64,000 nucleotides of DNA from the NCBI RefSeq assembly GCF_004341885.1, contig NZ_SLVX01000015.1:62001-126000 (forward strand), given 5' to 3'. Each line of letters opens with the position of its first letter. The first letter of the stretch is position 1. The notes below the pieces were generated by a model that did not search any database, was not told where the DNA came from, and was given only the letters and a program-made list of their open reading frames with translations. Origin of the DNA: Shinella granuli (GTDB lineage Bacteria; Pseudomonadota; Alphaproteobacteria; Rhizobiales; Rhizobiaceae). Made by a program: the position numbers and the translations under genes. Below are positions 4,030-7,700 of this stretch, in pieces.

Positions 4030-4748
4030 CAGTCGGCCTCCGAAACAGTGGGGCCGAAGACGCGCTCGAACGAATCGCGGATGCGCATGTCCACATCGCT
4101 CATCATGACGGGCAGGCCGAGGTCGACGAGGCTCGTCACCCCGTAGCCGCGGATGCCGCAGGGCACGATGCCGGAGAAATGGTCGAGATCCGGATCGACA
4201 TTAAGCGAGAAGCCGTGAAAGCTCACCCACCGCCGCAGGCGGATGCCGATGGCCGCAACCTTGTCCTCCGCCGGCGAACCGTCCGGCAGCGGCGGACGCT
4301 CCGGCCGGCGCACCCAGACGCCGACGCGGTCCTCGCGCCGCTCGCCACGGACATTCATCGCGGACAGCGCGTCGATGACGACCTCCTCCAGTGCCGCCAC
4401 GAAAGCGCGCACGTCCTGCCGTCGCCGCTTGAGGTCCAGCATGACATAGACGACCCGCTGGCCGGGGCCGTGATAGGTGTATTCACCGCCGCGGCCCGTG
4501 GAAAATACCGGGAAGCGATCGGGCGCCACGAGGTCGGCCGCGTCGGCGCTGGTGCCGGCCGTATAGAGCGGGGGATGTTCGACCAGCCAGACGAGCTCGT
4601 CGGCCTCGCCGTTCGCGATCGCCGCCGCCTCCCTTTCCATGGTTTCGACCGCCTCGTCATAGGCGACGAGGTCCTGCGCGACGCGCCAGCGCACCGGCGG
4701 CGAGCCCGGAATGGCGAGAAGGGAGGCGGAAATGTCCTGACGCTGCAT
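4002..4748 (-). CDS. lipB: Octanoyltransferase (lipoate-protein ligase B)
   Basis: Cytoplasmic enzyme that moves octanoyl groups from acyl-ACP to the E2 and GcvH lipoyl domains, the first step of lipoate synthesis. 248 residues. It shows the LipB landmarks: [12 protein letters not shown], the catalytic Lys in EDKVAAIGI, the HGFSLNV segment, and the active-site Cys in [12 protein letters not shown]. The start ATG at 4748 (MQRQDISA) has AAGGA eight bases upstream; an in-frame ATG at 4799 lacks one. Its tail overlaps the convergent protease-fusion gene by 28 bases. Confidence 0.95.
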
Positions 4749-4942: not shown

Positions 4943-5027
4943 GCGGTCGTGGCGGAATTGGTAGACGCGCAGCGTTGAGGTCGCTGTGGGGCAACCCGTG
5001 GAAGTTCGAGTCTTCTCGACCGCACCA
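4943..5027 (+). tRNA. tRNA-Leu (anticodon GAG)
   Basis: 85-nucleotide class II tRNA. The acceptor stem GCGGTCG (4943-4949) pairs with CGACCGC (5017-5023), followed by discriminator A and an encoded CCA at 5025-5027. The anticodon stem CAGCG/CGCTG encloses the loop TTGAGGT with GAG at 4977-4979, and a long variable arm follows, as expected for leucine. The T-loop GTTCGAGTC is present. It reads CUC and CUU codons. A strong terminator follows at once. No integrase or duplicated tRNA end is nearby, so it is not an obvious attachment site. Confidence 0.96.
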
Positions 5028-5470: not shown

Positions 5471-5965
5471 TCAGGCCTTGCCCTTGCTGTACTTCCTGAC
5501 GATGCGCTCGCGCTTCAGCCGCGACAGGCGGTCGATCCAGAAGATGCCGTCGAGCTGGTCGATTTCGTGCTGCAGGCAGACCGCGAGCAGGCCGTCGGCC
5601 TCCTCCGTCTGCGGGGCACCGGAAAGATCCTGGTAGGCAAGGCGGATGCGGGCAGGGCGCTCCACCTCGTCTGTCACGCCGGGCATGGAGACGCTGCCTT
5701 CCGTATGGCGCTGTTTTTCCGGCGAGAACCATTCGATATGCGGGTTCACATAGGCCTTGAGCGAACCCGGTCCGTCGAGCTCGATCACCGTCAGCCGTTC
5801 GAGAATGCCGACATGGGCCGCGGTGATGCCGATGCCGGGGGCGGCCCGCATCGTGGCGGCGAGATCGTCGGCAAGCCTCGCCAGCCGTGCATCGAAGGTT
5901 TCGACCGCCTGGCAGGGAAGGCGGAGGCGCGAATCGGGGTAACGCAGGATGGGAAGGATCGCCAT
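5471..5965 (-). CDS. Peptide deformylase-like protein lacking two metal ligands
   Basis: 164 residues, the normal length of peptide deformylase, and alignable throughout. All three catalytic motifs have changed: GxGxAAxQ is GIGITAAH (44-51), EGCLS is EGSVS so the metal-binding Cys becomes Ser91, and HExDH is HEIDQ so the second metal-binding His becomes Gln137. His133 and Glu134 remain. By family knowledge, loss of the Cys and one His should abolish normal Fe/Zn binding, so deformylation is doubtful and a binding or regulatory role is possible. Start ATG 5965 follows GGAGAAACC. A canonical deformylase gene is expected elsewhere in the genome. Confidence 0.8.
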   Translation of the reverse strand: MAILPILRYPDSRLRLPCQAVETFDARLARLADDLAATMRAAPGIGITAAHVGILERLTVIELDGPGSLKAYVNPHIEWFSPEKQRHTEGSVSMPGVTDEVERPARIRLAYQDLSGAPQTEEADGLLAVCLQHEIDQLDGIFWIDRLSRLKRERIVRKYSKGKA

Positions 5966-6269
5966 GGTTTCTCCGGATGCCGGTTGAGCCGCTTTCCTAG
6001 CCTGTTTGCGGCAAGGGGAAAACGCTGCACCGGCGCGAGGCGTCGCGATTCGTGTGATTTTCGTGAAATTGCAACAGCTTGCGAAAATTTTGCATCCGGC
6101 CGGCTTTTGCCGCTTTCGGCGATGGACCGGCCGCGTTCTTTGCTTTAGCACGAGCAAAGCAGTGCATCCGCTTGGGCGGCGCGCTGCACCCGAACCCTCT
6201 ACGCAATCCCTGTCGTCCCAGCGCCGCCGACATGCCGGGCGGGACGAGCCCGATACAAGGAGCGGCCCG
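5966..6269. other. Intergenic region between the deformylase-like gene and mgtE
   Basis: 304 bases between divergent genes. A 7-bp stem CTTTGCT/AGCAAAG lies at 6138-6159, and an inverted CCGGCCG/CGGCCGG pair is nearby. I see no recognisable magnesium riboswitch and no convincing sigma70-like promoter. The promoters of both genes must lie here. Confidence 0.5.
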
Positions 6270-7700
6270 ATGGACGACACCGGCGACGACGACCGTATCC
6301 ATCGGGGACAGGCAGGGCACAGTACCTTTGACGGCGAGGACATCTATGCCGAGGACGGTTCGATCCGCTCGGACTTCCTCATGCATGTCGGCGCGGCGAT
6401 CGCCGACCGCGACCTCCTGTTCCTGCGCCGGCACGTCGCGCGGCTGCACGAATCGGAAATGGGCGACCTGCTGGAAGCGATCCAGCCGGAGCAGCGCCGC
6501 CAACTCGTCTCCCTGCTCGGCGACGACTTCGACCTTGCCGCGCTGACCGAGGTCGACGAGGCGATCCGCCTCGACATCGTCGAGCACATGCCGAACGAGC
6601 AGATCGCCGCCGCGCTCGGCGAGATGGATTCGGACGACGCCGTCTACATCCTGGAAGACCTCGACCAGGAGGACCAGGAGGAGATCCTCTCCAAGCTGCC
6701 GTTCACCGAGCGCATCCGCCTGCGCCGCTCGCTGGACTATCCCGAAAGCACGGCCGGGCGCCGCATGCAGACCGAATTCGTCGCCGTGCCGCCGTTCTGG
6801 ACGGTCGGCCAGACGATCGATTACCTGCGCGAGGACGCCGACCTGCCGGAAAGCTTCTCGCAGATCTTCGTCATCGACCCGACCTTTCGCCTGCTCGGCG
6901 CCATCGATCTCGACCGCGTGCTGCGCACCAAGCGCGGCACGAAGATCGAGGCGATCATGCGCGAGACGAACCATCCGATCCCGGCCGAGATGGACCAGGA
7001 AGAGGCCGCCCAGCTCTTCGAGCAGTACGACCTTCTTTCCGCCGCGGTCGTTGACGAAAACGGCCGCCTTGTCGGCGTCCTGACCATCGACGACGTGGTC
7101 GACGTCATCCAGGAAGAGGCCGAGGAAGACCTGATGCGCCTCGGCGGCGTTGGTGACGAGGAGCTGTCCGACACCACCATCGAGACCGTGCGCTCGCGCG
7201 CACCCTGGCTGCTCGTCAATCTCCTGACAGCCTTCATCGCCGCCTCGGTGATCTCGCTCTTCGAGGCGACGATCGAGGAGATCGTGGCGCTCGCCGTGCT
7301 GATGCCCATCGTCGCCGGCATGGGCGGCAATGCGGGCTCGCAGACGATGACCGTCACCGTGCGGGCGCTGGCGACCCGCAATCTCGACATCCACAATGCC
7401 TGGCGCGTCGTGCGGCGCGAGGCGGGCGTCGGCCTGCTGCACGGCGTCGCCTTCGGCTTGATGATCGGCCTTGTGGCGGGCATCTGGTTCCATGACGCCA
7501 ATATCGGCGGCGTCATCGCGGCGGCCATGCTGATCAACATGAGTGCGGCGGCGCTCGCCGGCATCGCCATTCCACTCTTCCTCGACAAGGCGGGGGCGGA
7601 CCCGGCCGTCTCCTCCGCGGTCTTCGTGACGGCCGTCACCGATATCGTCGGGTTCTTCGCCTTCCTCGGGATCGCGACCTGGTGGTTTGCCATCCGCTGA
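6270..7700 (+). CDS. mgtE: Magnesium transporter MgtE
   Basis: 476-residue inner-membrane Mg2+ channel. In order it has an acidic N-terminal MgtE_N superhelical domain (about 40-150), a pair of CBS domains (about 155-280; VFVIDPTFRLLGAID and AAVVDENGRLVGVLT mark the repeats), a plug-helix region, and five membrane helices. The pore signature VAGMGGNAGSQTM is intact. In this family the N and CBS domains sense cytosolic Mg2+ and close the pore. The start ATG 6270 (MDDTGDDD) has AAGGAG seven bases upstream. Confidence 0.95.
   Translation: MDDTGDDDRIHRGQAGHSTFDGEDIYAEDGSIRSDFLMHVGAAIADRDLLFLRRHVARLHESEMGDLLEAIQPEQRRQLVSLLGDDFDLAALTEVDEAIRLDIVEHMPNEQIAAALGEMDSDDAVYILEDLDQEDQEEILSKLPFTERIRLRRSLDYPESTAGRRMQTEFVAVPPFWTVGQTIDYLREDADLPESFSQIFVIDPTFRLLGAIDLDRVLRTKRGTKIEAIMRETNHPIPAEMDQEEAAQLFEQYDLLSAAVVDENGRLVGVLTIDDVVDVIQEEAEEDLMRLGGVGDEELSDTTIETVRSRAPWLLVNLLTAFIAASVISLFEATIEEIVALAVLMPIVAGMGGNAGSQTMTVTVRALATRNLDIHNAWRVVRREAGVGLLHGVAFGLMIGLVAGIWFHDANIGGVIAAAMLINMSAAALAGIAIPLFLDKAGADPAVSSAVFVTAVTDIVGFFAFLGIATWWFAIR

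Follow-up and report, generated by a model that had tools for sequence, protein, structure and literature searches.

The window analysed here, 64,000 nucleotides of Shinella granuli DNA at positions 62001-126000 of contig C15, carries a paralogue of peptide deformylase (PDF) on its minus strand. The open reading frame runs from an ATG at 5965 to a TGA at 5473-5471 (164 codons), and a GGAG stands 5 bases upstream of the ATG. The features of the locus are as follows.

5471..5965, minus strand: PDF paralogue of 164 aa, the His-Ser-His-Glu-Gln variant (NF009484 family); from the open reading frame, profiles, alignment and model
5813..5836, minus strand: motif I, GIGITAAH, residues 44-51, in which His51 replaces Gln; from translation and alignment
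5687..5701, minus strand: motif II, EGSVS, residues 89-93, in which Ser91 replaces the metal Cys; from translation and alignment
5555..5569, minus strand: motif III, HEIDQ, residues 133-137, in which Gln137 replaces the second metal His; from translation and alignment
5474..5521, minus strand: basic C-terminal helix region, residues 149-164; from the AlphaFold2 model and net charge
6237..7700, plus strand: mgtE, the divergent neighbour of the paralogue; from Pfam and context

Just downstream of the paralogue lies the gene for a small DUF982 protein (PF06169; 5119-5367, minus strand), and a tRNA-Leu (gag; 4943-5027, plus strand) sits between this gene and one with a lipoyl-ligase domain. Apart from a tRNA, no RNA family reaches threshold between window positions 4700 and 6600.

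Canonical PDFs carry three motifs, G-phi-G-phi-A-A-x-Q, EGCxS and HExxH, as set out in passages of PMC12690207 and PMC5591237. The paralogue has neither the motif I Gln, nor EGCxS, nor HExxH: its translation reads GIGITAAH, EGSVS and HEIDQ, the three changes that a preliminary description of this DNA had claimed. What it retains is the first metal His (His133) and the catalytic Glu (Glu134). It is a full-length PDF-fold protein whose fold is predicted to be intact, which bears out the same description on that point as well. The PF01327 profile scores 144.6 bits (cut-off 22.8), placing the protein in the fold family, and an AlphaFold2 model built on an 81-row alignment has a mean pLDDT of 95.5 and a pTM of 0.90, with an alpha-helix at residues 149-163, the C-terminal element by which type 1B PDFs are recognised. 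The best solved match by Z is 1n5n_A (Z 27.3, rmsd 1.4, 164 aligned residues, 42% identity; VIA-align), and only PDFs appear among the matches listed, 50 from Foldseek and 50 from VIA-align.

The genome from which the window comes (a 6.59-Mb draft in 97 contigs) has two PF01327 matches, the paralogue and a canonical PDF with GIGLAAIQ, EGCLS and HEIDH on contig C4 (L001 1492-2016), where the list of open reading frames, read by eye, has fmt following it. The preliminary description had proposed a search for a canonical def elsewhere in the genome, whose absence would speak against it; the gene is there, so this objection falls away. The two proteins (42% identity over 164 aligned positions) share fold, length, peptide-cleft residues, His133, Glu134 and a basic C-terminal stretch, and the paralogue differs from its canonical type 1 sister by the changes of Gln to His, Cys to Ser and the second His to Gln, and in that fmt is not adjacent to it. 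The stretch after motif III is shorter in variants (median 25 residues, n = 126) than in canonical proteins (median 30, 58 rows), and its net charge has a median of +7 in both groups (6 to 10 in variants, -4 to 8 in canonical proteins). A canonical PDF is also present in all 29 carrier genomes checked, a set from which five genomes with chance matches to the search pattern described below were left out, and in each of the 29 the best PF01327 match is this canonical protein, with the motif I Gln, EGCLS and HExDH.

This bears on whether the paralogue could be a canonical PDF in function, its substitutions tolerated and its role that of extra deformylase capacity. The NCBIfam model NF009484 types it in just this way, as a peptide deformylase equivalog, but two of the three metal ligands and the motif I Gln have been replaced, a canonical PDF already serves every carrier checked, and a section of PMC7683392 reports that Cys90 is required for the activity of Salmonella PDF. 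We regard canonical function as improbable. Since the metal Cys and one metal His are gone, iron-dependent deformylation of the usual kind is, judging from the sequence, unlikely for the paralogue.

A scan of a public genome set found 469 relatives of the paralogue, of which the best 80 were kept; among these 80, the closest named relative is from Shinella yambaruensis (92%). His51, Ser91, His133, Glu134 and Gln137 are invariant in the 81-row alignment of the window protein with this set. We widened the alignment with further PDFs, taken from Rhizobiaceae, from other Alphaproteobacteria and from the carrier genomes, extracting 206 proteins and aligning the 203 of at least 120 aa. Insertions had split the three dropped extracts; when the full frames are read, L122 belongs to the variant type and L186/L211, which are one gene, to the canonical type. 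At positions 51, 91, 133, 134 and 137, 134 of the aligned proteins read HSHEQ, 69 read QCHEH and none is intermediate, a zero that speaks for this sample only, since most rows were found through similarity to the window protein or its motif. Some loci share the same gene or protein, and the distinct sequences number 126 variant and 68 canonical.

Across the 126 distinct variants, 20 columns are invariant despite pairwise identity down to 43%, and these include Gly46, His51, Glu89, Gly90, Ser91, Cys130, His133, Glu134 and Gln137. Every one of the 126 distinct clade members has the same three switched and two kept letters, so the pattern is not a matter of chance. The switched pattern is conserved in Rhizobiaceae, where the preliminary description had suggested a comparison, and beyond. 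When the 126 variants are set against 58 canonical rows, ten divergent canonical-type loci being left out, there are ten columns in which each group is at least 90% fixed, but on a different letter; six of these columns are in the motifs (47, 48, 51, 91, 92 and 137), two lie just after motif III (142 and 143) and two before motif I (35 and 40). The peptide cleft can be followed in the same way. A portion of PMC5071857 describes Val71 (motif I), Glu129 and Gly130 (motif II), Val171 and His174 of the S. agalactiae PDF as the residues that hold the backbone of the peptide and the side chain of its methionine (S1'), and by motif alignment they map to paralogue positions 45, 89, 90, 130 and 133. 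Positions 89, 90, 130 and 133 do not vary among the variants, and at position 45 most of them have, by eye, Ile or Val.

Two kinds of outlier were seen in these alignments. The variants L122 and L123 (from genomes G380 and G153) carry, in a loop near residue 66, an acidic insert made up of repeated GDAEA units, and L181 and L182 are divergent third PDFs that have DDCFS/DDCLS for EGCLS and keep the Gln, the Cys and both His.

A maximum-likelihood tree with columns 51, 91 and 137 masked places all variants in one clade with support of 100/100. It has 106 rows, 69 variant and 37 canonical-type, close relatives having been dropped by identity. The split between the groups is kept in 100% of 200 bootstrap trees, in a bootstrap that is not fully settled and a tree in which some canonical-type branches are long. 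The stem branch of the variants is long (0.85) and adjoins ordinary alphaproteobacterial PDFs. By this phylogeny, the three-residue switch has a single origin.

At the level of the family, a PDF match was found in 119 of 121 genomes, 41 of which have two or more by table count. Second copies were classified in 31 of these 41 genomes and are of the variant type in 29 and of the canonical type in two (G050 and G085), so that variant carriers make up at least 29 of the 121 family-level genomes, ten multi-copy genomes lying outside the classified set. The second PDF of G085 (L211) is intact, with EGCLS, HECDH and some 20 extra residues inserted ahead of motif II. The two family-level genomes without a PDF match, G087 and G089, are fragmented (300 and 770 contigs), and the missing matches are perhaps assembly gaps.

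A search of DNA with the pattern HExDQLDG gave raw matches in 14 of the 385 genomes sampled from the class and in 24 of the 398 of the phylum sample, two samples that overlap. On reading, one class match (L114) and four phylum-sample matches (L139, L145, L146 and L147) proved to be chance and were removed; 13 of 385 and 20 of 398 remain, every one in the class of the window. The pattern is strict and misses DQLNG variants (L191 and L192), so these counts are lower bounds. By the same pattern, no variant outside Alphaproteobacteria was picked up in the 398 phylum-sample genomes, and a longer pattern matched no viral contigs. Members of the Rhizobiaceae type are scattered in the clade tree, with seven label changes when three unlabelled rows are left out. 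For the 24-row group, the test does not reject a single Rhizobiaceae clade (p-AU 0.083); for a 5-row subset that represents an incompletely labelled group, it does (p 0.024). We do not claim lateral transfer. The gene occurs patchily, so many species can do without the paralogue, a point that weighs against the reading preferred below.

Where the gene is present, it appears to be maintained. Nei-Gojobori dN/dS between the window gene and three Shinella relatives is 0.18-0.21, and two further Shinella pairs give 0.21-0.24, low values that point to purifying selection. Medians over all pairs are 0.36 for variants and 0.35 for canonical proteins, with single pairs up to 0.84 and 1.10, but these all-pairs values are unreliable owing to dS saturation and codon bias (high GC3, in our judgement).

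A decaying duplicate without function would be expected to look otherwise on several counts. The paralogue is full-length in divergent genera, 20 of its columns do not vary over 126 distinct sequences, dN/dS in Shinella pairs is about 0.2, and its relatives form one clade on a long stem. What speaks for decay is that the gene is absent from many genomes, and that the plasmid records H12, H13, H14 and H23 from Mesorhizobium have partial or split matches that look like broken copies. We give this explanation very little credence; decay or sequencing error was rejected on the strength of the conservation and of the dN/dS of 0.18-0.24 in five Shinella pairs.

A divergent mgtE lies within 700 bases in 42 of the 80 loci (the best 80 of 469 relatives), and all 42 are titled as Rhizobiaceae genera or unclassified Rhizobiales. 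On S. meliloti pSymB the order is DUF1624, isoprenylcysteine methyltransferase, MerR, mgtE and PDF, and the window has the same order by eye, with mgtE identified by Pfam. For loci without the mgtE arrangement, 20 upstream or nearest neighbours and 10 downstream neighbours were scanned, these being the picks of an ORF heuristic and a subset of all neighbours. The result was mixed, with families such as 3HCDH, MerR, AMNp, HTS, MFS, amidohydrolase, methyltransferase and glyoxalase, among others; 3HCDH, methyltransferase, glyoxalase and MFS occur twice each among the 20 neighbours and the others once, and BON occurs twice among the ten downstream neighbours, both times in Rhizobiaceae (L070 and L031), with the others again once. 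We rejected a conserved operon partner, the neighbours being so mixed outside the mgtE arrangement, and outside Rhizobiaceae the context gives no partner. Nor do we claim that mgtE and the paralogue are linked in function.

The paralogue might act as a regulator or decoy that modulates deformylation by binding canonical PDF, the ribosomal site or an inhibitor (actinonin, for instance), with no action on peptides of its own. Its fold and cleft are those of canonical PDF and its basic C-terminal stretch has the same median charge, which would suit such a role, but with no conserved partner gene seen outside Rhizobiaceae among the neighbours scanned, we consider it quite improbable.

The variants are gathered under one annotation model. 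NF009484 (PRK12846.1-5) is the best NCBIfam match of the paralogue (263.7 bits, cut-off 190), and ten of ten further variant members score 250-281 bits, so that all 11 switched-site members tested are matched; the canonical PDF of the same genome, at 172 bits, falls below the cut-off. The model is typed as an equivalog and named 'peptide deformylase', and its description carries no flag for the switched site. Systematic misannotation of the switched-site family as active peptide deformylase is likely. Some rhizobial members are, we presume, labelled 'peptide deformylase-like' in Swiss-Prot.

Accessory PDFs with substitutions in the catalytic motifs are grouped as type 3, and parts of PMC12690207 and PMC5591237 describe them as weakly active or inactive; the examples are the accessory PDFs of S. 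aureus and S. pneumoniae (inactive) and PDFs of trypanosomatids and archaea. A passage of PMC12690207 reports activity for T. brucei type 3 PDFs whose motifs carry substitutions, so the loss of motifs is no proof of inactivity. The paralogue has substitutions in the conserved motifs in common with type 3 PDFs, all three motifs being changed, but differs from them in its uniform three-residue switch and in forming one alphaproteobacterial clade beside canonical PDFs, in a tree of variant and canonical-type rows. Accessory PDFs with changed motifs are thus known, and this uniform switched-site clade is probably a new addition to them. Literature searches of partial coverage returned no paper describing the switched site and none with 'EGSVS', 'HEIDQ', 'HEVDQ' or 'HExxQ' as words, and neither 'Rhizobi' nor 'PRK12846' occurs in the main text of PMC12690207. 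COG0242 peptide deformylase is listed among competition and nodule co-infection functions, with the copy not specified, in a portion of PMC8407117, and a passage of PMC12628762 concerns another deformylase.

The preliminary description spoke of a paralogue that has lost two metal ligands. Both are gone, but the phrase undersells the change, since they were replaced once, along with the motif I Gln, by the fixed residues His51, Ser91 and Gln137. With these replacements fixed, and with His133, Glu134 and the cleft residues invariant, the site looks rebuilt rather than merely lost.

A rebuilt site may also be a catalytic one, and this is a serious rival, as Glu134, His133 and the new residues are all strictly conserved. 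The paralogue would then be an active hydrolase of formyl-peptides or another N-acyl substrate. It would bind a metal at a remodelled site, with His51, His133 and either Gln137 or an acidic residue as conceivable ligands, or work by a metal-free mechanism around Ser91 and His51. Glu134, which is catalytic in canonical PDF, His133 and the replacements do not vary in 126 of 126 sequences, at a site where one would expect drift if the protein were a purely structural relic, and parts of an MBE 2025 paper speculate about other cofactors for type 3 PDFs. Such a ligand set has, on the other side, no precedent that we found among PDFs in the literature searched, and we hold an active hydrolase to be possible but doubtful.

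Our preferred reading, put forward tentatively, is that the paralogue is a functional, selectively maintained accessory PDF-fold protein, either a binder of N-termini near the ribosome or a slow or special-purpose enzyme, which does not perform canonical Fe-dependent deformylation. The active site would have been rebuilt once, early in the alphaproteobacterial branch that carries the paralogue. The basic C-terminal helix may dock the protein close to the exit of the ribosome, as the net charge and the position of the helix suggest; for E. coli PDF, a section of PMC12690207 attributes ribosome contact to the C-terminal region. The (formyl-)methionine end of a peptide might, with lower certainty, enter the old cleft, where His51, Ser91 and Gln137, beside His133 and Glu134, would most likely hold a ligand or a different metal. 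Deformylation of the canonical, Fe-dependent kind would not follow, and the outcome would be binding of N-termini, or slow or special-purpose catalysis on them.

The enzymatic side of this can be taken further. One old switch may have produced a neofunctionalised PDF-fold enzyme, its His51/Ser91/His133/Glu134/Gln137 site using a different metal or none for a different reaction on the N-termini of proteins or small molecules, in many alphaproteobacterial genera and hidden under a canonical name. We think this conceivable, though on balance unlikely.

PDF is a long-standing antibiotic target, and counts of deformylase genes are taken from annotation. The clade described here goes by the name 'peptide deformylase', under a model that names an active enzyme, yet its metal site is switched uniformly throughout, and it forms a testable subfamily that is probably widely misannotated. 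If the paralogue is inert as an enzyme, it would be a clearly delimited natural pseudoenzyme that could be compared directly with an active sister from the same cell. If instead N-termini are bound or modified differently, it would add a second layer of nascent-chain processing in Alphaproteobacteria, nitrogen-fixing symbionts included.
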